From: Bacteroidia bacterium
GTDB lineage: Bacteria; Bacteroidota; Bacteroidia; NS11-12g; UBA9320
Direction of reading: 5' to 3'
DNA length: 55,915 nt
Assembly (NCBI GenBank): GCA_016779945.1
Contig: JADHMR010000005.1
Coordinates: forward strand, 1-55,915
The position numbers and the translations under genes were made by a program. This document shows positions 8,177-53,323 of this stretch, piece after piece (positions within the stretch are counted from its first letter, which is position 1; each line of letters begins with the position of its first letter). The notes beneath the pieces were generated by a model that had not been told where the DNA came from, ran no database searches, and saw only the letters and a list, made by a program, of their open reading frames with translations.

Positions 8177-8209
8177 TTTGCTTGGTAATGAAAATTACTC
8201 CTATTTTTG
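8177..8209 (+). promoter_or_regulatory. promoter of the cobalamin riboswitch operon
   Basis: TTTG at 8177-8180, then 21 nt, then TATTTTTG at 8202-8209: a complete Bacteroidota -33/-7 promoter. It places the transcription start just before the 5' end of the riboswitch aptamer, as expected. Confidence 0.65.
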
Positions 8210-8211
8210 AA

Positions 8212-8372
8212 GTAGCAAAAAGTTAAGGGAAACGAAGTGAAAACCTTCTACTGTACCCGCAGCTGTGATGTTCTTATGATTTTGCTTATCTATTTCCACT
8301 GTTCAAATATGAATGGGAAGGGCAGCATAATCAGAACTTAGTCAGAAGACCTGCTTGTTGCGACGTTACTAT
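8212..8372 (+). ncRNA. cobalamin (B12) riboswitch
   Basis: The leader shows the conserved core of the cobalamin aptamer in the right order: AAGGGAAACGAAGTGAAAA at about 8225-8243, CTGTACCCGCAGCTGTGA around 8251-8268, a CCACTG / GGGAAGG pair at about 8296-8321, and the B12 box AGTCAGAAGACCTGC at 8340-8354. A small hairpin follows at 8377-8394 (GCTTT/AAAGC) that could be part of the expression platform. It sits between a promoter and a BtuB-like receptor gene, the classical arrangement in which cobalamin binding lowers uptake-gene expression. The 5' and 3' boundaries are approximate. Confidence 0.9.
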
Positions 8373-8475
8373 TAATGCTTTCGGGATGAAAAGCTATAGG
8401 AGCCAGACGAACTATCAGGTCTTTTATATATTTTATTCTCATAGGTATTTATTTTTTAAATTAAAATTAAAACCC

Positions 8476-10341
8476 ATGAAATCAGCCTTTGCTGTATTGT
8501 TAATACTTTGCCTTTATAGCCATTTAATGGCTCAGGTGATCCATGCTGATTTTTCAGAGGTGGATGACTCTAGTATGGTGATTGGGTTAGATTCTGTCGA
8601 TATTTTTTCTAAGAGTATCTCGCCCAATGAAGAGCTCATTGCTCAAGTTTTCTTAAAAACAAATCCGTTTCAGACCTATGCAGAATTACTTCAAAAACAG
8701 AGTGGCGTATTTATAAGAAGCGATGGCTATGGTGTCTTAAGTACACCATCCTTTAAGGGCCTAGGGACAATGCAAATGCCAATTATAATTAATGGGGTCA
8801 ATATGCAGAGTAGCATGAATGGAACTATGGATTTAAGTTTGATTGATGCAATTCATTTTAAGAATGCACAATTTGGATCCTCCGATTTGCAAACACTTGG
8901 TTCACCATCTTTGGGAGCAGGTGTTGCTATGGATTCAGATTTATCTAACGAAGGGGTAGATATTAATCTGAGTTATAGTAATCTTAGAGAACTTGGCTTA
9001 GGTGCCAAGTATTCATTTGTAAAAAAACGATTTAAGTATGCGTTAAGTACTTCATTTGTGAATTCTCAAAATAGGATAAGCCTTAAGCCCTACGAATTGG
9101 ACAGTATACTTACTAATACAGATATTCAAAGATTCAGTCTTATTCAAAATATGGCCTTTGATTTGACCTCCAAAAGCAGTATCCAATCCATGTTGTATTT
9201 TTTAAATGCAGATCGTGGAATCCCACCATCGATTGGTGAAAACAATCAAAATCGCCAGCAAGACAATAACATTGTTCATCTTTTCACCTACAGAAATAAG
9301 CTGAATTCAAATACAAGTTTGAAGATTTCAAATCAACTATCTCATGAAAAAATACATTTTTTTTTAAGTAAAAATAATATCCAAACAAATAACCAGGTAA
9401 GTAACATTAATACAAACATTAGTTTGATGCAAAAAATCTCGCATAAAACGGAACTTTTGATAAATGTTCAAAATCAACGAGCATATTATAGCTCTGATGC
9501 GTTAATAAATAGAGTTACTTGGAACCGAATACTTGCTTCATACGAATTGACTAAAAAATTTGACAAAGGAAGTGTGAAATTTGTTCAAGGTATCGTAAAC
9601 TGGAACAATCAATGGGCTATGAATGCTGGTCTTAATGGCAAAATATTATTTAATAAATTCTATTCATTAAAGGGTGAATTGCAAAAAGTATATCGCTTAC
9701 CGGTGCTTAATGAATTGTACTGGTATCAACCAAGTGAGGCCGTTGGAAATTTAGCCTTAAAACCTGAAGAAGGTTATAAATTAGATTTTGGACTAGCTTA
9801 TTCAGATAAAAAAGCTAGTATTCAAATTAATCCGCATATTGGTTTTTTTAAAAATTGGATTCAATGGATTGGATTACCAAATTCACCTCAAAATATCAGT
9901 CAAGTCTTAGTAAGTGGGGCAGTATTAAATGCTTCATATTCATACCCAATTAATGGTTATAAATTCATAGTACGTTCAAATATGCACTACGTTAGATCAG
10001 TTTATCGGTTTGATGATAAGAATACCCTTAGACAAAATAAACAACTCATCTTCACTCCAAGGTTTACCAGCAATCTAACTTTTAGTGTGATAGAAGAAAA
10101 CTTCGGGTTATTTGGAAATATTCAGTTTGTAGGTAAGAATTACGTAGCAACAGATAACTATTCTTATATTGATGCTTATTACCTAGTTGACATAGGAGGA
10201 TACTATAATCATTCAAAAATCAGATTGGGTTGTTCAATAACCAATATTATGAATACGCCATATTTTACAAAACCAAGAACGCCACTACCTGGAACAACAA
10301 TCAAACTAACATTAAATTATCAAATTAAAACCCAGCCATGA
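8476..10341 (+). CDS. btuB: BtuB-like TonB-dependent cobalamin receptor
   Basis: A 621-residue outer-membrane receptor from ATG 8476, chosen because it opens directly with a signal peptide (MKSAFAVLLILCLYSHLMAQ). An in-frame ATG at 8386 lies within the riboswitch expression region and would prepend 30 charged and aromatic residues. The plug is visible: SGVFIRSDGYGVLSTPSFKG, then PIIINGVNMQSSMNGTMDLS. Barrel strands follow, with YRLPVLNELYW and a typical C-terminal end. The length fits BtuB better than larger SusC proteins. The cobalamin riboswitch directly upstream and a BtuG-like gene in the same operon support B12 or corrinoid as substrate. The next gene overlaps by 4 nt. Confidence 0.85.
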   Translation: MKSAFAVLLILCLYSHLMAQVIHADFSEVDDSSMVIGLDSVDIFSKSISPNEELIAQVFLKTNPFQTYAELLQKQSGVFIRSDGYGVLSTPSFKGLGTMQMPIIINGVNMQSSMNGTMDLSLIDAIHFKNAQFGSSDLQTLGSPSLGAGVAMDSDLSNEGVDINLSYSNLRELGLGAKYSFVKKRFKYALSTSFVNSQNRISLKPYELDSILTNTDIQRFSLIQNMAFDLTSKSSIQSMLYFLNADRGIPPSIGENNQNRQQDNNIVHLFTYRNKLNSNTSLKISNQLSHEKIHFFLSKNNIQTNNQVSNINTNISLMQKISHKTELLINVQNQRAYYSSDALINRVTWNRILASYELTKKFDKGSVKFVQGIVNWNNQWAMNAGLNGKILFNKFYSLKGELQKVYRLPVLNELYWYQPSEAVGNLALKPEEGYKLDFGLAYSDKKASIQINPHIGFFKNWIQWIGLPNSPQNISQVLVSGAVLNASYSYPINGYKFIVRSNMHYVRSVYRFDDKNTLRQNKQLIFTPRFTSNLTFSVIEENFGLFGNIQFVGKNYVATDNYSYIDAYYLVDIGGYYNHSKIRLGCSITNIMNTPYFTKPRTPLPGTTIKLTLNYQIKTQP

Positions 10342-12005
10342 AAAGAAAAATTATTCAATTATTAAGTATATTACTTTTTTTAAATAGCTATGCCCAATAT
10401 GATCACACAAGGGTATATTCCACATTTGATAATATACCGTTATCCAAGTCTGACACCTTTAATAATGGTGCTGATTTAAGCGGTGGTTTTGCTCATTTCG
10501 GAAGAAATTGGACAAATTCGTACATGCCTGATTGGGGCAGCTGGTCAGGTTGGGCTCTAAGTAATATGACTGATACATTAACTCCGGGATACCAAAACCA
10601 GTATAGTGCTATTCCAGGTCATGGTGTAAGCCATACCAACAATTATATGGTTAGTTACGGAAATACCTTTATCAAATTAGATTCGTCTACTGATATTTCA
10701 GGGGCTTATTTTACCAACAGTACCTATGTATATTTAGATCTCATGAATGGGGGTGATTTTAGCAAAAAATTTGGTGGCGAAAATGGAGACGATCCTGATT
10801 ATTTTAGCGTTAAATTTTATTCTTACCTAATGGGAGAATTGGTAGACTCTACAACGTTATATCTGGCAGATTTTAGGTTTTCAGATAACTCTGAGGACTA
10901 CATTTTAAACGATTGGACTTATGTAGATTTTAACAATGATGTTGACGTAGATATTAGAATAGATAGTATAGCTATCAAATATGAGAGCTCAGATACTGGA
11001 TCATTTGGTATCAATACACCCACTTATTTGTGTATGGATGATTTTAATGCCATTAGTACCGCAGAGGTAATGCCAAAAATGATACGATTTGATGAGGATA
11101 CATTTTATAATGGAAGCGACGGTGCCGGTGGGTTTAATGTTAGTCATTTGTTTTTTCCTAATAACTACAACAACACTTGGGGTAGTTGGTCGGGTTGGAG
11201 TGTTAGCTCTATGTATGATGACGTTACTCCTGGATATACTAATCAGTATTCCTCTGTAAGAAGAATCATGTCAACCATACCAGAATCTGACTGGTATTTT
11301 GAGTCCGTTCATTTCGTAAACAATGGTCAGAAAAATACAGTTCGTTCACCTTATTTTAATGATGCTGATGAAGGGATATTTGGACTAGTAAGACTACCTG
11401 TTCCTGTTCAGTTTCACATCACTAATGCTACTTATGCTGCCTTAGACATGAGAGATGGGAGTGCTTTTAGTAAAAAATTTGGTGGGGATAGTGGTGACGA
11501 ACCCGATTTTTTTAGGTTGCTTGTCAAGAGTGTGTCTGCTTCAAATGATATTCTCAATATTGATACCATTTACTTGGCGGATTTTCGTTTTGATGACAAC
11601 ACTCAGGATTATATCTTGGATGAATGGGAAATGGCTGAAATAGTGCCTTGTGATCGGGTAGATTTTGAGTTGCAATCATCAGATGTTGGACAATATGGAA
11701 TGAATACACCTGCCTATTTCTGCTTGTCATTGGCTCAGAGTTTAACCAATTCTGTTACCAATAAAACACTTCCTCAATTAAATGTTTACCCAAATCCTAC
11801 CCAAAATATTTTGAACATTTTAACAGATAAATCCATTCAACGAATTGAATTAATCTCAGCAGATGGTAGAATTGTTGCAAACACAAAAGATAAAATTGTA
11901 TCAAATAAATATTCATTTGATGTTTCTAGTTTAGTAACTGGTGTTTATTTTGCTAAGATTTATACATCCAATGGAACATCTATTTCAAAATTCATAAAAC
12001 AATGA
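10338..12005 (+). CDS. tandem DUF4465 surface protein with T9SS sorting domain
   Basis: A 555-residue secreted protein: signal peptide to about residue 19 (LLFLNSYAQ), then two copies of the same domain. Copy 1 (about 20-240) has GSWSGWALSNM, FSKKFGGENGDDPDYF and LADFRFSDNSEDYILNDW; copy 2 (about 245-465) has GSWSGWSVSSM, FSKKFGGDSGDEPDFF and LADFRFDDNTQDYILDEW. This is the DUF4465 pattern. The last ~75 residues (VYPNPTQNIL ... GVYFAKIY) are a T9SS type A sorting domain, so the protein should be exported and attached to the surface. It lies inside the B12 riboswitch operon with 4-nt overlaps on both sides, so a role in corrinoid capture is likely but inferred. Confidence 0.8.
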   Translation: MKRKIIQLLSILLFLNSYAQYDHTRVYSTFDNIPLSKSDTFNNGADLSGGFAHFGRNWTNSYMPDWGSWSGWALSNMTDTLTPGYQNQYSAIPGHGVSHTNNYMVSYGNTFIKLDSSTDISGAYFTNSTYVYLDLMNGGDFSKKFGGENGDDPDYFSVKFYSYLMGELVDSTTLYLADFRFSDNSEDYILNDWTYVDFNNDVDVDIRIDSIAIKYESSDTGSFGINTPTYLCMDDFNAISTAEVMPKMIRFDEDTFYNGSDGAGGFNVSHLFFPNNYNNTWGSWSGWSVSSMYDDVTPGYTNQYSSVRRIMSTIPESDWYFESVHFVNNGQKNTVRSPYFNDADEGIFGLVRLPVPVQFHITNATYAALDMRDGSAFSKKFGGDSGDEPDFFRLLVKSVSASNDILNIDTIYLADFRFDDNTQDYILDEWEMAEIVPCDRVDFELQSSDVGQYGMNTPAYFCLSLAQSLTNSVTNKTLPQLNVYPNPTQNILNILTDKSIQRIELISADGRIVANTKDKIVSNKYSFDVSSLVTGVYFAKIYTSNGTSISKFIKQ

Positions 12006-12943
12006 GACTAGGAGCTTTAATAATCATATTTTTTCAAATACTATCGTATGCTCAGTTCGATGGGCCAGGTGGAGAGGAGGGGAGTAAATCAATTTCAAAA
12101 GATAACTCCTCAATTATTGGCTGGGCTACAGGAGCTCAATTGTTCAGGGGACCTATGCAAATTAATGATACTGCCTTGGGGTTAGCTTCAGTGGGAAACA
12201 AAACTAGTGCTCTTGGTCCGTGTGATGGTGATGTTGTTAGTCTTGGAGATGGAGGTTCAATCATTCTCTCTTTTAGTCAACCTATTTTGAATAGGAAGGG
12301 ATATGATTTTGCTACTTTTGAAAATGGGTTTCAAATAGGGTTTTCTTATTATTTAGAACTTGCTCATGTAGAAGTAAGTAAAGATGGGATAGCATATAAA
12401 CGTTTTCCAAATCAAAGTTTAACAGATACTGATTTTCAAACCAATAATTTTAGTTATACAGACCCCTATAATCTAGAAAACTTAGCGGGCAAACATCAAG
12501 CACCCTATGGAACATTATTTGATATTGACGAATTGGGTTTTGATACCATAAATTATATCAGATTGATTGATGTGGTTGGGAGTGTGAACGATAGTTTTGG
12601 AACAAAAGACAGTAAAGGTCGAATGATAAATGATCCTTTTCCTAGTCCTTTTGAAAGTTGTGGTTTCGATTTAGATGCCGTAGCAATTGTAAATGGTGAG
12701 TTGTTAAATATCGAAAAACAAGTACTGCAGGGAATAAACGTTTACCCAACACTAGTAGATCGAAATATACCAATTCGTATTGATGCTCCAGCTCTTTCTG
12801 ATATTTCAATAATAGATTTAACTGGTAGAAAAGTAAACTTTTTACGCAACCAAAATGAGATTTATATTTCCTCTATAGGTACGTATTTCGTAAATATTTC
12901 TTATCAAGGTAAATCATACACACAAAAGGTTTGCGTAAGATAG
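12002..12943 (+). CDS. B12-operon cell-surface protein with T9SS-type tail
   Basis: A 313-residue protein with a short signal peptide (IIIFFQILSYAQ) and a body of about 210 residues containing GWATGAQLFRG, SLGDGGSIILSF, YDFATFENGF, LELAHVEVSKDG, IRLIDVVGSV and ESCGFDLDAVAIVN. The end (INVYPTLVDRN ... GTYFVNISYQGKSYTQKVCV) resembles a T9SS sorting domain. I recognise this type only as a cell-surface protein found beside BtuB-like receptors in Bacteroidota; its ligand is unknown to me. It overlaps the DUF4465 gene by 4 nt and the next gene by 13 nt, so it belongs to the riboswitch-controlled operon. Confidence 0.65.
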   Translation: MRLGALIIIFFQILSYAQFDGPGGEEGSKSISKDNSSIIGWATGAQLFRGPMQINDTALGLASVGNKTSALGPCDGDVVSLGDGGSIILSFSQPILNRKGYDFATFENGFQIGFSYYLELAHVEVSKDGIAYKRFPNQSLTDTDFQTNNFSYTDPYNLENLAGKHQAPYGTLFDIDELGFDTINYIRLIDVVGSVNDSFGTKDSKGRMINDPFPSPFESCGFDLDAVAIVNGELLNIEKQVLQGINVYPTLVDRNIPIRIDAPALSDISIIDLTGRKVNFLRNQNEIYISSIGTYFVNISYQGKSYTQKVCVR

Positions 12944-13926
12944 TTGTCATATTAGTTAGCTTAGTGCTGCTTTCAGGGTGTAAGGATCAAGAAAGTAAAC
13001 CTCAAATAACTTTTTTGGAGTCGGGTGTCATGATTGCAAACCAAGGAAACTTTGGTTGGGGAGAAGGAACTCTAACACTGTACAATCCCGATGACAATAC
13101 CGTTCAGAATGACGTTTTTCAGAATATTAATGATAAAAGTTTAGGCAATGTATTTCAATCAATTACTCGCATAAATGGACTTTATTATTTTGTAATAAAT
13201 AACTCGGGTAAGATTATAGTCACTGATTCTGCTTTTTTACAGATTGGACAAATAGATGGACTCATATCTCCGCGTTATCTGTATCCCATAACCGACACAA
13301 AAGCATACGTTACCGATTTATATGCTGATGCTATATCCGTGATTGATTTGAATTTAAATAAAGTAACGAAATCCATTCCAGTAAAAGGGTGGTCTGAAAA
13401 GGGTGTTGTAAAGGGTGATATTTTTTGGTTTACAGTTACGGGGTCGAATAAAATATATGGTGTAGATATAAATACAGACAATGTTATTGATAGTTTGGAT
13501 GTGGGCAATTCTCCAGAATCAATCGTTTTGGATAATAGTGATCGTATTTGGGTTATATGTAAAGGTGATAAAGACATGAAAGCCATGCTAGTCCGATTTG
13601 ATATTTCTGATGAGTCAGCAGAATTTCAAATTGAGCTAGAAAATACACCAACAGGTTTAGTTTTTGATCAGTTTAATAATGTACTTTACTTTCTGAATAA
13701 TGGTTTATGGTCAATGAAACCTAATGAAACATTACCAAATTTAATATACGATGGAGAAGGTAAAACCTTTTACGCTTTGGAGATTAATCCGAGTAATGGA
13801 GATTTATATGTTTCCGATATTGTAGATTTTGTGAGTAACAGTTCGATATTAAGATTTGATAAAAATGGTGATTTAATCAATCAATTTTATGCTGGAATTA
13901 TCGCTGGAGATTTCTTTTTTCAGTAG
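12931..13926 (+). CDS. BtuG-like beta-propeller lipoprotein (DUF5074/YncE type)
   Basis: About 331 residues, probably initiated at TTG 12931, which overlaps the previous gene by 13 nt; no ATG exists before the signal sequence. The lipoprotein signal is VILVSLVLLSGCKDQE. The body has propeller-like repeats (VMIANQGNFGWGEGTLTLYNP, KAYVTDLYADAISVIDL, NKIYGVDINTDNVIDSLDVG, DLYVSDIVDF). The N-terminal ANQGNFG...GTLTLYNP block matches the style of DUF5074/YncE proteins such as BtuG, which binds cobalamin very tightly and caps BtuB in gut Bacteroides. Position at the end of the riboswitch-btuB operon strongly supports that role, though direct B12 binding is inference. Confidence 0.75.
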   Translation: MRKIVVILVSLVLLSGCKDQESKPQITFLESGVMIANQGNFGWGEGTLTLYNPDDNTVQNDVFQNINDKSLGNVFQSITRINGLYYFVINNSGKIIVTDSAFLQIGQIDGLISPRYLYPITDTKAYVTDLYADAISVIDLNLNKVTKSIPVKGWSEKGVVKGDIFWFTVTGSNKIYGVDINTDNVIDSLDVGNSPESIVLDNSDRIWVICKGDKDMKAMLVRFDISDESAEFQIELENTPTGLVFDQFNNVLYFLNNGLWSMKPNETLPNLIYDGEGKTFYALEINPSNGDLYVSDIVDFVSNSSILRFDKNGDLINQFYAGIIAGDFFFQ

Positions 13927-22938: not shown

Positions 22939-22996
22939 ATGGTGTAAGCAAAGTTGCATATATTATTCAATTGACAACAGTAACTTTGATTTTTGT

Positions 22997-23004
22997 TATC
23001 TTTG
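22997..23004 (+). promoter_or_regulatory. -7 element for the CARDB/T9SS gene
   Basis: TATCTTTG is an exact TAnnTTTG, 6 nt before the GTG start at 23011. A TTGACA-like TTG sits 23 nt upstream (22971-22973). A possible leaderless transcript. Confidence 0.5.
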
Positions 23005-23010
23005 GAATTC

Positions 23011-26000
23011 GTGATTAGAAGATACTTAAATTTAATTTTAATACTATTTTTATCTGTTCTTTCCTTTGGTCAGTACACTAAGATTGGAAATGGTGGTTTT
23101 GCAAGTGGAAACTTTGGTCCATTAAGGACTGATACTTCTTCGTCTTATTTTAGTCGGTTTGCTTTTATTTATCCTAGCTCAACACTCACCAATTTGAAAC
23201 ATGGTGACAGTATTTCCGCTCTATCATTTTTTTATGAATCATTTGATTCAATTAGAGGTAACTGCAATATGAAGGTTTTTTTAAGGTCCACCAGCCAGGC
23301 TGATTTCGGGGCAACCGCCTTAAATTGGTCAGCAGAATCTCGAACAATGGTTCCGATTTATGACGATAATCCAAAAAAAATAATCGGTTCTATACCACAA
23401 GAAATATTATTGAAACTCTCCAAACCCTATGCTTGGGATACCACTGGAGGAAAGATACATTTAGAAATTTTAGTTGAGTACACACAAAAGGTCAATCAAG
23501 TTGGAACGATGAATTGGTCAGTTGAAAGTAGTTTTTATGTTCCAGGTTTTGTTTCTCAAAATGAAAGTAAATACATCTATGGAACCAGCAATTCGGGTAT
23601 AGACAGCATTACAACATTTTCAAATTCTATTCATCCAACACTAAAAATTTATCACCCAAGTGAATCAATTGATTTGGAGGCAACTAAACTATACAGTCTT
23701 GGAACAGTTCCGCTCTTAATGAATGAATCTGACAGCATAAAAGTTTCGATTGATAATGTCGGAATAGATACCGTTACTAACCATAAAGTATATTTAGATG
23801 TTAGCGGAGCTAATTCATACAAGGACAGTCTTCTGATTACAAAACTTGCCCCTTATGAGAGTCAATTTGTTTATTTTGACAAATACCAACCCAAAATTCA
23901 AGGAACTGAAACACTTAAAATAACGATTGATCAAGATAGTAATACGTTAAATAATCAGATTACAAAAGATCGTGTAATTAATTACAACGTATATTCTCAT
24001 GCTGATCCGTTTAATGGAAATTCGGGTGGAATTGGTTTTAATGGAGGTACTGGAGATTTTGTTGCAAGATTTTATGTAGATGGTACATCATATATTAACC
24101 AAATTAAAGTTGACTTCAATTCCGTTGGTACTTCATTTCAGTTAGGTGTTTGGGATGTTGGTGCAGATGGGTTTCCAGGTAAAGAATTATTCATATCAGA
24201 TACTTCGTTATCTGTAGCAGGCACATTTATCATGAATGTATTGCCAAGAATTTCGGTAACAAATAGCTTTTACGTTGGTATTCGTCAAACCTCTAACACT
24301 AATGTAGGGTTTAGTTTTCAAAGTGAGGTTCCTGTTCGACCTCATATTTTTTATTTTACTGCACCAGCAGGAGACACCACATGGGTACCTTTTTCACCTG
24401 GTTTTGATTTCAACTTTAATATACAGCCACGACTTCAGGTTGCCAATGATGTAGCAGTATTAGATATTTTGAGTCCTAAACCCGATTCAGCTTATCAATA
24501 TGATGAATATGATTCGTTAGAAATTGTTGCTCAATTTATCAACTACGGTTATCAGAATCAGACCAATTTTCCGGTAGAGGTTAAGTTATATAATGGTTTT
24601 GGTCAATTAGAGTTTTCAAAACAGTCAGTTACTTCAATATCGGCTGGTGACACATCTAAGGTAGTTTTTGGAAAAATCAGTAAATATCGTTTAGGTGATT
24701 ATACCCTTACTGCAACAACTAAACTTTCAAAAGATAGTGTTATTGACAACGATTCTAAAACCATAAAATTTTCTTTCATCAAAGATCATGATGTAGCGAT
24801 TGATCAAATTTTTTCTCCAAGTAACGGTTCGCAGTTTGATCTGCAAAGGGATCCAGTTCAGATGGTTGTTAGAGCTATAAATTATGGGGTTAAAACTCAA
24901 AATAATCTTACGGTTAGAATGGAATTAGTTAATTCTAATGGCAAGATTTTAATAGTTCAAGATAAAGTAATTAATCTGATAGGAGGGGCAACAACGATTT
25001 TACCTTTTGATACGATTTATTTACCTGAGGATGGTAACTTAATACTCCGTGCATTCACTATGTTAGCTATTGATAGTTTTCCTGAAAATGATACCATGAG
25101 GATTTCTATTTTTTCTAGAAAAGTTGATGATGTGATGGCTTTAGAAGTCGAAACTCCTTTCATTAACTCTTATTTCTCAAAAGATACAACCATTACACCT
25201 TATATCAGGTATCGAAATGACGGTATTACCAACCAAGATTCCATATTAATACGATACAGAATAGTTGATAAAGAAGATTCAATTTTATTCTATGATAGTG
25301 TGTTTCAAGACGCTTCTTTTTTAACCGAAAAACAAGTATTTTTTGATCCCATTAAGTTAGATTCTGCGGGTACTTTTAATTTTCAAACTTGGGTTTATAT
25401 CAAAGATGACCAGGTTCGATCAAACGATACAATTACTTCTAATTTTGATGTAATTAATGGGAATGACCTTCAAATATTAAGTGTTTATAGACCTCAGTTA
25501 GTTGAGCCACAGGGTAGGGCCCCAATTCCATTGAGTGTATTGATTAGAAACCAAGGTAATCTCAATGCGAATAATGTGAAAATCGTTGCGAATATTGAAA
25601 ATAACAAATCAGAAGTTATACTAAATGATACCCTATTTATAAATCTTAATAGACTAACAACTGACACTTTTGAATTTGAATCTTTAAATTTTGATCAAGT
25701 GGGGGATTATTATTTAAAAATTGTAAATCACTCTCAACTAGAGGACGTTCCCAATACGTTAGATACACTAAATTATAATTATATCGTACGTTATCAAAAT
25801 GATATTAGTATATCTCAACATTTGAACCCTTTGCCTCAAGATACCCTAGAATTAGATGAAATTATTTTTCCATCTGTTCAAGTTTTAAATAGTGGAATTG
25901 ATACGTTCAAAAATTTGGAGATTTGCGTTATTATCAAAAATTCATTAAATGACATTATTTACAGAGACAGTTTTGAACTAGTTCAATTGCCGCCAAACAG

Positions 26001-26718
26001 AGCGAGTAATTTTAATTCTATCCAAGAATGGGAGTCAAATGTTTCTGGTGATTATTTCATGCATTCCTGGTTTAAATCGTTGGATGACAATTCATCCAAT
26101 GACAGTTTAGTTACCTCGTTTGTTGTAGTAAAAAGAAGAGATGCTGTTATAGAATCAATCGCATTTCCTAACACGAACCTATACAAGCAACGATTATATA
26201 AACCAGTTGTAAATATCTTGAATGATGGTTTAGATAATCTATCAGGAGTTAATTTGTCATGCACAGTAAAAGTAGGTAGTACAACTATTTATCAAAAAAA
26301 TAAAATCATAGATGTTTTGTCAGGTCAATCGCTAACCATTGATTTTGATAGTACATTAACCTATGACAAAGCGGGAGAGGCACAAGCTATTTTCGTTATA
26401 GAGGCTTTGGATGACCAAGTTAGTTCGAATGACACTATGACGACTTCTTTTAATTTCATTCAAGGACTAGGAGTTCACGAATACTCACAATCGGATATTA
26501 TTACATATCCAAACCCTTTTGAAAACTACATAAATGTTTCAGCTGAAAATCCTATTTCAAGTTTAAGATTAATGGATATGTTTGGAAGAGTTGTTTATGA
26601 AGATAAAGATATAAATCAATTGATAGTGAGAATTGACCTTGATGTTTTGAAGGGGCTTTATATCCTTGAGATACGTTCGGGGAGTGAATGGTTCAAAATT
26701 CCAATTACTAAAGAATAA
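23011..26718 (+). CDS. large secreted CARDB-repeat protein with T9SS sorting domain
   Basis: About 1235 residues from GTG 23011, which begins a signal peptide (MIRRYLNLILILFLSVLSFGQ); a TTG at 22993 lies upstream but would precede the promoter box. Residues ~22-225 form a unique N-terminal region (SYFSRFAFIYP...). Then come about seven CARDB-like beta-sandwich repeats of roughly 110 residues, each with D-hydrophobic-A openings, an N-x-G core (e.g. FINYGYQNQTNFPVEVKL, AINYGVKTQNNLTVRMEL, ILNDGLDNLSGVNLS) and an S-N-D end. The C-terminus (TYPNPFENYINVSAENP ... GLYILEIRSG) is a T9SS sorting domain. Probably a surface or adhesin-like protein; ligand unknown. Confidence 0.85.
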   Translation: MIRRYLNLILILFLSVLSFGQYTKIGNGGFASGNFGPLRTDTSSSYFSRFAFIYPSSTLTNLKHGDSISALSFFYESFDSIRGNCNMKVFLRSTSQADFGATALNWSAESRTMVPIYDDNPKKIIGSIPQEILLKLSKPYAWDTTGGKIHLEILVEYTQKVNQVGTMNWSVESSFYVPGFVSQNESKYIYGTSNSGIDSITTFSNSIHPTLKIYHPSESIDLEATKLYSLGTVPLLMNESDSIKVSIDNVGIDTVTNHKVYLDVSGANSYKDSLLITKLAPYESQFVYFDKYQPKIQGTETLKITIDQDSNTLNNQITKDRVINYNVYSHADPFNGNSGGIGFNGGTGDFVARFYVDGTSYINQIKVDFNSVGTSFQLGVWDVGADGFPGKELFISDTSLSVAGTFIMNVLPRISVTNSFYVGIRQTSNTNVGFSFQSEVPVRPHIFYFTAPAGDTTWVPFSPGFDFNFNIQPRLQVANDVAVLDILSPKPDSAYQYDEYDSLEIVAQFINYGYQNQTNFPVEVKLYNGFGQLEFSKQSVTSISAGDTSKVVFGKISKYRLGDYTLTATTKLSKDSVIDNDSKTIKFSFIKDHDVAIDQIFSPSNGSQFDLQRDPVQMVVRAINYGVKTQNNLTVRMELVNSNGKILIVQDKVINLIGGATTILPFDTIYLPEDGNLILRAFTMLAIDSFPENDTMRISIFSRKVDDVMALEVETPFINSYFSKDTTITPYIRYRNDGITNQDSILIRYRIVDKEDSILFYDSVFQDASFLTEKQVFFDPIKLDSAGTFNFQTWVYIKDDQVRSNDTITSNFDVINGNDLQILSVYRPQLVEPQGRAPIPLSVLIRNQGNLNANNVKIVANIENNKSEVILNDTLFINLNRLTTDTFEFESLNFDQVGDYYLKIVNHSQLEDVPNTLDTLNYNYIVRYQNDISISQHLNPLPQDTLELDEIIFPSVQVLNSGIDTFKNLEICVIIKNSLNDIIYRDSFELVQLPPNRASNFNSIQEWESNVSGDYFMHSWFKSLDDNSSNDSLVTSFVVVKRRDAVIESIAFPNTNLYKQRLYKPVVNILNDGLDNLSGVNLSCTVKVGSTTIYQKNKIIDVLSGQSLTIDFDSTLTYDKAGEAQAIFVIEALDDQVSSNDTMTTSFNFIQGLGVHEYSQSDIITYPNPFENYINVSAENPISSLRLMDMFGRVVYEDKDINQLIVRIDLDVLKGLYILEIRSGSEWFKIPITKE

Positions 26719-51046: not shown

Positions 51047-53323
51047 ATGAGAAAATTAGTATTTGTGTCCATTTTTTTAGTTTACGCTCTAAGTATGAGT
51101 GCTCAATTATTTGAAATTTCTTTTGAACCTAATTTTAAAAACATAAATGGTGAGTCGATTTCTTTAGCGTTGTCAGGTGGTTTAAATCAGCCACAATTTT
51201 CAAATATTGACTTTAATAATGATGGTAAACTAGATTTATTTGTTTTTGATAGAAACGGAAATAAAGCACTTACTTTTATTGCTAAGTCAGTTCATGGAAA
51301 AATAATTTATGACTACGACCCTCAATACGAGGAATTATTTCCCTCTGCTCAGGAGTTTATGCAATTGCATGATTATAACGCGGATGATAAACCAGATCTA
51401 TGGATATATAACGGAGATTCTGTCGTTTTATATCAAAACAATGGTCAAACAATGCCCAGTTTTGACAGAATTAAAGGCTTATTTGCTTTTGATCGTGTGA
51501 ACTATGTGCCTTTTAATCCATTTAAAAAACTTTCCGAGATAAAGGGTTGCCTTCCAGCAATAGTTGATATTGACGGTGATACAGATATTGATTTTATAAC
51601 AAATTTAAACGTTACCGGATCCCAGATGATATTCAATAGAAATACTACTATCGATAGTAATTTTCAATTGGAAAATATCAAGTTTGATATTGTTGATAAG
51701 TGTTTTGGGGGAATTGACGAATTCAATGGTAATCTTATTGTTAATGCTCCTTGTTATTTTTATGAGGCCTATAAACAAAAGAAAAAGCATGTTGCCACCA
51801 AAACCATTTTGTTATTTGATGAAGATGCCGATGGCGATTTAGATTTATTGTTTGGTAGCTCAGAGCGATCTACCAACCCAGTATACTTTTTTAGAAATGG
51901 GAAAGCTGATTTAGAATATTATAAAGACACTTTTTTATCCGTAGATACAGCTTATTTTACTAGTATAATCGAATCTCAACTTCCTGTGTCGCCAGCAATG
52001 TCATACGTGGATGTTAATTTGGATGGTGTTAAAGATTTAATTTTAAGTACCAATGAGATTGACAAATCCTCATATCCTATAATGGAGAGTAACAATTCAA
52101 TTTTGTTTATCAATGATGGGTTGACAAACGATGTTGATTTTGTTTTTGAACAGAATGATTTTCTAGTGGGTGATATGATTGATTATGGTTCTGGTTGTTC
52201 ACCATCATTCGTTGATTTGGATAACGATGGAGATCAAGATTTAATTTTTGCAACCAGTGGAAACCACTATATAACAGGGGATACTTCAGACTTCTTAGTC
52301 TACTTTGAAAACAAAGGTTCGTCGAGTCTACCCGATTTTCAGTTAGTTGATGATAATTATTTGAATTTAAAATCTAAGCATATTAGAGGTATAATGCCAA
52401 CATTTGCTGATATTGATGGCGACAATGATTTAGATTTATTTTTTGGCAAAATGGATGGGTCAATTAGTTTTTATGAGAATATAGGTAATACTGAAAATCC
52501 AGATTTTTCCTACATTACTTCCAATTATGAAAATATTCAAGTTACAAATTATGCTGCTCCATACTTTGATGATTTGAATCGTGACGGGATAATTGATTTG
52601 ATTGTGGGGAGTTATGATGGGACTATTGATTATTACCAAAATACAGGCACTACTGCGAATCCTATCTTTAATCTTACTCGAGATACTTTTGGAGGAATCA
52701 TTGTCAATGAATTAGTCCGAACTTCTAAACTTGGTTCAGATGGACAGATATATGATACCATGGTTTATCAAAACTATGGATTTAGCTCTCCTGTTGTTTT
52801 GCATTGGGAAAATGGTTCTCGTTGTATTGCTGTGGGAAATAACCAAGGACTAGTTCGTGTATATGATCTCAAATCTGATTTGAACGAGAATTTGAATGAA
52901 ATTGAAGATTACATGATAGAATTTCACAGCCAAAAAAAATACACAAAAGATTGGGGAAGAAGAGCTAATCCGTCCAGTTCAGATTTAAATGGTGATGGTT
53001 ATCCAGATATGTTAATTGGTAACGATCGCGGAGGGATGAACTTTGTAAAAGGAAACAAGAAAACAAGTGCAACTCTTGCTAAAGAAAAATTAACTGTATT
53101 CAAAATTATACCAAACCCTGCCAAACACTATTTTAGAATTGAAACAAAATCAAATAGACGAATTCAATACAAGATTTCAGATTTAAGTGGAAGAGTAATA
53201 CAAGAGAGTTCTACATTCTCAGGTGATCGAATTTCGATGGACAAGTTTCCAAATGGAATCTACTTTGTTTCAATCGAAGATGGTTTTAGGAAGTACCACG
53301 TTGAAAAGCTTATTTCTCTATAA
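51047..53323 (+). CDS. FG-GAP/VCBS repeat protein with T9SS sorting domain
   Basis: A 758-residue secreted protein: signal peptide to about residue 20 (LVYALSMSAQ), then many FG-GAP/VCBS-type calcium-loop repeats with D-x-N/D-x-D-G-D motifs, such as DFNNDGKLDLFVFD, DIDGDTDIDF, DEDADGDLDLLFGS, DLDNDGDQDLIFA, DIDGDNDLDLFFG, DLNRDGIIDLIVGS and DLNGDGYPDMLIGN. These form an integrin-like propeller. The end (IIPNPAKHYFRIETKS ... GIYFVSIEDG) is a T9SS sorting domain. Probably a surface-attached or secreted adhesion or binding protein; no catalytic domain seen. Confidence 0.88.
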   Translation: MRKLVFVSIFLVYALSMSAQLFEISFEPNFKNINGESISLALSGGLNQPQFSNIDFNNDGKLDLFVFDRNGNKALTFIAKSVHGKIIYDYDPQYEELFPSAQEFMQLHDYNADDKPDLWIYNGDSVVLYQNNGQTMPSFDRIKGLFAFDRVNYVPFNPFKKLSEIKGCLPAIVDIDGDTDIDFITNLNVTGSQMIFNRNTTIDSNFQLENIKFDIVDKCFGGIDEFNGNLIVNAPCYFYEAYKQKKKHVATKTILLFDEDADGDLDLLFGSSERSTNPVYFFRNGKADLEYYKDTFLSVDTAYFTSIIESQLPVSPAMSYVDVNLDGVKDLILSTNEIDKSSYPIMESNNSILFINDGLTNDVDFVFEQNDFLVGDMIDYGSGCSPSFVDLDNDGDQDLIFATSGNHYITGDTSDFLVYFENKGSSSLPDFQLVDDNYLNLKSKHIRGIMPTFADIDGDNDLDLFFGKMDGSISFYENIGNTENPDFSYITSNYENIQVTNYAAPYFDDLNRDGIIDLIVGSYDGTIDYYQNTGTTANPIFNLTRDTFGGIIVNELVRTSKLGSDGQIYDTMVYQNYGFSSPVVLHWENGSRCIAVGNNQGLVRVYDLKSDLNENLNEIEDYMIEFHSQKKYTKDWGRRANPSSSDLNGDGYPDMLIGNDRGGMNFVKGNKKTSATLAKEKLTVFKIIPNPAKHYFRIETKSNRRIQYKISDLSGRVIQESSTFSGDRISMDKFPNGIYFVSIEDGFRKYHVEKLISL

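Follow-up and report, generated by a model that had tools for sequence, protein, structure and literature searches.

Which proteins capture vitamin B12 (cobalamin) at the surface of Bacteroidota outside the gut Bacteroides, and by which route do they reach it? The question is raised by positions 8,177 to 13,926 of contig JADHMR010000005.1 (Bacteroidia bacterium, assembly GCA_016779945.1; GTDB lineage Bacteroidota, Bacteroidia, NS11-12g, UBA9320). The whole stretch analyzed, 55,915 nucleotides (nt) of the forward strand, is referred to as the window. A cobalamin riboswitch is followed by four genes, all on the + strand: btuB, a gene with two DUF4465 domains, a gene for a second surface protein, and btuG. 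A first-pass annotation had described a riboswitch-headed operon of BtuB, a BtuG lipoprotein and two middle proteins, linked by 4- to 13-nt overlaps. Its operon is supported by the RF00174 match and the domain matches, and overlaps of 4 nt (btuB/DUF4465), 4 nt (DUF4465/second gene) and 13 nt (second gene/btuG) were measured. The locus is very probably a B12-scavenging operon of the order btuB-btuJJ-btuH-btuG, with BtuJJ and a BtuH-like protein as capture proteins exported by the type IX secretion system (T9SS). The observed basis comprises the gene order, the riboswitch, the protein families, the tails, the conserved ligand residues and the recurrence across the phylum.

The first middle gene (10338..12005, + strand) encodes a BtuJ-type protein with two DUF4465 domains. 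PF14717 is matched in two stretches with 253 bits (E 2.8e-75), and the solved structure 9hmu with E 2.8e-23. The DUF4465 proteins of Bacteroides thetaiotaomicron, BtuJ1 and BtuJ2, are tight B12 binders (PMC12751083). B12 binding has been demonstrated for eight DUF4465 members with identities down to 16%, one of them from Fluviicola taffensis, and Tyr146 (DE loop) and Tyr245 (HI loop) of BtuJ1 are the conserved B12 contacts; the T9SS goes unmentioned in that study (PMC13398666). In the window protein, Tyr130 and Tyr230 of domain 1 and Tyr366 and Tyr460 of domain 2 align with these two residues. Both DUF4465 domains carry both contact tyrosines, and by its sequence the protein is a member of the BtuJ family of known B12 binders. 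The first-pass annotation had assigned no function to it, a view that does not hold (PMC13398666; PMC12751083). Compared with the family (PF14717; BtuJ1 9FCT, D5EK51 9HMU), the two window domains are full and bear the contact tyrosines of BtuJ1, whereas their tandem arrangement and the T9SS tail differ from the single-domain lipoproteins BtuJ1 and BtuJ2.

The second middle gene (12002..12943, + strand) encodes a protein of 313 amino acids (aa) with a signal peptide. Pfam and NCBIfam returned only the tail and a weak, sub-cut-off LIC_13355 match, and a single-sequence search of the PDB only gingipain tails. A PHROGs search returned nothing significant. No Pfam model matches BtuH among the proteins scanned here. 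Homologues are present in 79 of the 108 genomes of the order of the window, a few of these matches covering the tail only. A profile built from 41 homologues was searched against 4,512 open reading frames (ORFs) from 80 Bacteroidales loci that had been retrieved by means of BtuG. The matches sit near BtuG and are either about 310-330 aa long or, with N-terminal PKD domains, about 570-640 aa. In B. faecis the profile matches a PKD protein of 593 aa, which agrees with BtuH2 (BT_1956) in length and architecture. Addition of bridging homologues from a phylum-wide search gave a best E of 4e-10. BtuH accounts for 76 of the 78 matches below E 1e-3, the other two being reached through the T9SS tail only, and the best reversed decoy had E 2.6. 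The hhalign probability to BtuH was 47% without the bridging homologues and 95.6% with them. When a profile was searched against PDB sequences, the BtuH domain of BtuG1 (8blw_B, E 0.009) was the single clear relative apart from T9SS tails.

The structure of the second protein was taken from an AlphaFold2 model (pLDDT 89). The best of 999 fold matches was BtuH2 (7biz_A) with Z 12.7 and 2.7 Å over 152 residues at about 20% identity, followed by 8blw_B (Z 11.9) and then by CBM32 domains at about Z 10. Foldseek ranked 8blw_B second with poor TM-scores, which arose from a joint alignment of domain and tail and were resolved by a re-run with VIA-align. The BtuH-like domain spans residues 38-231 approximately (12113-12694, + strand). 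Asn399 and Phe401 of BtuH2 contact the phosphate and the lower ligand of B12 (PMC8941943). They are the N and F of a 'GNAF' motif (numbering by the B. faecis protein) and align with Asn108 and Phe110 in 'FENGF' of the window protein, which are invariant across 39 homologues. The profile, the fold, the ligand residues and the gene neighbourhood mark the second protein as a divergent BtuH-domain protein. A wholly new family, considered at first sight of the single-sequence results, was overturned by the profile and fold searches, and with it the first-pass opinion that the protein was of unknown kind. Nothing in the analysis points to corrinoid remodelling, which had been suggested for the middle proteins. 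NF033170 (LIC_13355 family lipoprotein) gives weak matches, under its cut-off, to 18 of the 39 BtuH-like proteins and may represent a relative of BtuH outside the Bacteroidota.

The pairing of the BtuH-like gene with B12 uptake genes recurs. Among 74 fetched homologue loci, the gene adjoins btuB and/or btuG in 56, namely in 27 of 40 within the order and 29 of 34 phylum-wide. Homologues lying mostly outside B12 loci, named beforehand as an outcome that would speak against the assignment, are not what was found. A cobalamin riboswitch occurs in 27 of the 29 scanned loci in which btuB and/or btuG adjoin the gene. Two operon-type loci of one family (L185, L187) have no recognizable cobalamin riboswitch and only a transfer RNA beside btuB; a divergent riboswitch or another form of control may operate there.

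Both middle proteins end in T9SS type A sorting tails. The tail of the BtuJ-type protein (11784..12002, + strand) matches PF18962 with 51.1 bits (cut-off 27) and TIGR04183 with 48.4 bits (cut-off 23). In the BtuH-like protein, the tail (12740..12937, + strand) matches TIGR04183 with 29.4 bits (cut-off 23) and resembles in fold a T9SS substrate tail (8glk_D, Z 8.6). The sorting domain is matched in all 31 BtuJ-type homologues tested and in 32 of 39 BtuH-like homologues. Members of the Bacteroides BtuJ and BtuH families are lipoproteins (PMC12751083). On the BtuH-like protein no lipobox was seen by pattern scan; the scan is crude, missing evident BtuG lipoboxes and many Bacteroidales BtuH proteins, and serves as a supporting contrast only. 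The first-pass annotation had called the tail clear on the DUF4465 protein and probable on the second, and had set T9SS delivery against the lipoprotein capture of gut Bacteroides; the scores agree with the former, and the replacement of lipid anchors by tails with the latter. The genome holds 77 T9SS tail matches and a full GldM. A literature search, with most subscription journals outside its coverage, found no account of B12 capture by T9SS-delivered proteins, nor any of BtuH in organisms of the Flavobacterium type. Tail matches mark two further T9SS-tailed proteins in the window, at 22993-26718 and 51047-53323.

Several observations weigh against a B12-scavenging operon with T9SS-exported capture proteins. 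Gln333 of BtuH2 is not retained in the window protein, a counterpart existing in the bridging homologues, and the corrin contacts Tyr510, Trp511, His476 and Trp577 cannot be aligned to it with confidence. A sister family includes 13 genomes whose BtuH-like gene is separate from the operon and has no cobalamin riboswitch nearby (L048, L049, L053-L055, L057-L059, L061, L064, L065, L069, L070). The tail of the BtuH-like protein stays under the Pfam cut-off (PF18962, 22.2 vs 27), and SprA was not found in the 91%-complete assembly. Finally, BtuCDF was not found in the genome; the FecCD matches, tried as BtuCDF, were rejected, as they belong only to a metal ABC cluster of the zinc/manganese type. 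The name 'BtuH-like' is used instead of BtuH because Gln333 is not retained, the corrin contacts are unmapped and the lipid anchor is absent. Relative to BtuH2 (BT_1956, 7BIZ) and the BtuH domain of BtuG1 (8BLW), the window protein shares predicted fold, profile homology, the Asn and Phe for phosphate and lower ligand, and adjacency to btuG; it differs in its low identity, in lacking PKD domains, lipobox and Gln333, and in having a T9SS tail. Of the properties that define BtuH, the homologous domain is present by sequence and fold; the lipoprotein anchor is not, a T9SS tail taking its place.

The solitary copies, the lost glutamine and the rank of CBM32 domains directly behind BtuH would suit a discoidin/CBM32-type adhesin or glycan binder that stands in the operon by chance. 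This explanation is improbable: the top two of the 999 fold matches are both of the solved BtuH domains, the profile matches are specific to BtuH, the Asn and Phe are invariant, most loci adjoin btuB and/or btuG, and genomes with lone copies still have a btuB-btuJ operon. All 13 of these genomes carry, elsewhere, a cobalamin riboswitch followed by btuB. Eleven of these btuB loci were read further: btuJ lies downstream in every one, and btuG in 10; the stretch read for the remaining one is short. The lone copies have housekeeping surroundings where inspected, with neighbours of the ftcD/glmM/mutS2 type in several genomes. A tree, midpoint-rooted only, nests them among operon-borne copies and requires three changes of the operon/lone trait. 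Because of this nesting and the three changes only, the BtuH-like gene more likely moved out of the operon than into it. The lone sister-family gene may be expressed constitutively or have been given another role.

The sub-threshold Pfam score and the missing SprA also bear on a second alternative, in which the tails are vestigial and the BtuJ-type and BtuH-like proteins bind B12 in the periplasm instead of capturing it at the surface. It is very improbable. SprA is present in 16 of 19 genomes of the genus, and for this reason its gap is probably an assembly artefact; the many tail matches and the full GldM argue in the same direction, as do the NCBIfam score and T9SS-like fold of the BtuH-like tail and the retention of tails in 31 BtuJ and 32 BtuH-like homologues. 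A third alternative makes the second protein the equivalent of BtuL, a non-binding vesicle-promoting lipoprotein: its gene immediately precedes btuG, and in B. thetaiotaomicron BtuL (BT_1955) is a neighbour of BtuG2 (BT_1954) (PMC12751083). This alternative has a negligible probability and was rejected on failed homology to BtuL, since the B. faecis gene in the place of BtuL (L073, 7631-9844) encodes a 738-aa protein of the leucine-rich-repeat type that the profile skips in favour of the adjacent PKD protein of 593 aa, which matches BtuH2 in length and architecture.

The outer genes of the operon encode the transporter and its predicted lid. The btuB-like gene for a TonB-dependent receptor is placed at 8476..10341 (+ strand), with Pfam plug and barrel domains. 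Its ORF was called from 8386, and the start was set by conservation: ATG 8386 falls inside the loop of a conserved hairpin behind the riboswitch aptamer, and ATG 8476 (MKSAFAVLLILCLYSHLMAQ..., signal peptide) corresponds to an in-frame ATG in the relatives L032 and L033 and to GTG in L036 and L041. ATG 8476 is the likely true start rather than ATG 8386. Among solved structures, the receptor has relatives at E 0.001 only in the Bacteroides BtuB-BtuG complexes 8bmx, 8p98 and 8p97, namely their TonB-dependent receptors. Plug and barrel, kinship with Bacteroides BtuB and a B12 riboswitch ahead of the gene identify it as BtuB, with B12 transport predicted. The btuG-like gene (12931..13926, + strand, TTG start) encodes a beta-propeller lipoprotein that aligns across almost its full length with the BtuG of 8p97 (8p97_B, E 7e-48) and matches DUF5074 with 65.7 bits. 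Its lipobox LSGC was identified by eye, LPAM_1 scoring slightly under its cut-off (19.6 bits). A propeller lipoprotein related to solved BtuG and encoded in one operon with btuB, it qualifies as BtuG. In B. thetaiotaomicron, BtuG forms the lid of BtuB (PMC10404256). The window resembles the BtuB-BtuG complex (8P97, 8P98, 8BMX; PMC10404256) in its neighbouring btuB and btuG homologues and full-length BtuG lipoprotein; no notable difference was seen for BtuG, while the window BtuB was matched mainly C-terminally (residues 428-642).

A Bacteroidota-type promoter (8177..8209, + strand) was read from the letters upstream: TTTG at 8177-8180, a 21-nt spacer and TATTTTTG at 8202-8209. The latter, a -7 box of the form TAnnTTTG, is retained in an upstream alignment of eight relatives, two of which deviate slightly; the -33 box (TTTG) is less clear in the same alignment. 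The cobalamin riboswitch aptamer RF00174 (8203..8372, + strand) scores 76.9 bits against a gathering threshold of 31.5 (E 3e-17) over the full model length. It is the sole Rfam match within the window and the one cobalamin riboswitch found in the 2.24-Mb assembly. A hairpin 3' of the aptamer (8377..8394, + strand; GCTTT-CGGGATGA-AAAGC) is kept across the eight aligned relatives. The CGGG of its loop (8382-8385) is the complement of CCCG (8256-8259), which lies in loop L5 of the aptamer; we take this arrangement to be the L5-L13 kissing loop. The pairing is probable; both sides are nearly invariant, so that covariation cannot support it. A possible alternative helix of the 3' part of the aptamer, AAGACCTG (8346-8353), with CAGGTCTT (8416-8423) in the leader forms a perfect 8-nt complement in the window. 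It appears confined to the window's own lineage and was rejected as a general feature; because the pairing is absent from most relatives, no mechanism of riboswitch control is claimed.

The genome encodes two users of B12, MetH and methylmalonyl-CoA mutase, and the cell clearly has a use for the vitamin. In the same genome (L248 1176-3869, L249 1531-3999), the match of MetH to its model does not begin before about position 321, the homocysteine domain being seemingly a separate gene, and an IcmF-type fused mutase/GTPase occurs beside the ordinary methylmalonyl-CoA mutase. The window also holds, at 51-1791, the tail end of another TonB-dependent receptor and, after it, a small lipoprotein, HmuY-like by eye (haem or iron uptake).

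A mechanism can be proposed in which regulation, B12 binding, T9SS export, surface anchoring or release, and hand-over are predicted steps. Most likely, cobamide represses the operon, and cobamide shortage would let the riboswitch permit expression of the four genes in this organism. BtuB would act as the outer-membrane transporter and the BtuG lipoprotein as its lid. BtuJJ and the BtuH-like protein would be exported by Sec and then cross the outer membrane through the T9SS by means of their C-terminal tails. Held on the surface or partly released, they would provide as many as three additional sites for capturing cobamide outside the cell, and would hand it on to BtuG and BtuB. A more tentative and rather unlikely extension is that both are released by the T9SS as 'cobalophores', soluble or loosely held scavengers that bind cobamides at a distance from the cell and return them to BtuB-BtuG. 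Haemophores of the HmuY/HusA type and siderophores are secreted or surface binders that feed TonB-dependent receptors. The likeness, binders passing a scarce cofactor to such a receptor, is one of function, not of membership; ligand, folds and families are different, and release of the window proteins is only predicted. Vesicle-borne BtuJ has been proposed to scavenge similarly in B. thetaiotaomicron. If cobalophores exist, T9SS export would serve many non-gut Bacteroidota in the place that lipoproteins have in gut Bacteroides.

Locus 2 of B. thetaiotaomicron (btuJ2, btuH2, btuL, btuG2, btuB2, btuF, btuC, btuD; PMC12751083) is likewise riboswitch-controlled and encodes BtuB, BtuG, DUF4465 and BtuH-domain proteins. 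In contrast, the window operon opens with btuB, has a two-domain BtuJ, replaces lipid anchors by T9SS tails and is without BtuL, BtuF, BtuC and BtuD. Earlier work had described BtuH as structurally without known homologues and had mapped its distribution in genomes from the human gut. New here are the reach of BtuH-type proteins and their pairing, with BtuJ, with the T9SS. Their range now takes in 79 of the order's 108 genomes as well as other families of the phylum, and they are mostly encoded in btuB/btuG operons that open with a riboswitch. Within one set of capture families, surface delivery thus comes by two routes, a lipid anchor or a T9SS tail, and this offers a testable case of nutrient-capture proteins switching their secretion route. 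The findings suggest that competition for B12 by means of dedicated surface binders is not peculiar to gut Bacteroides.

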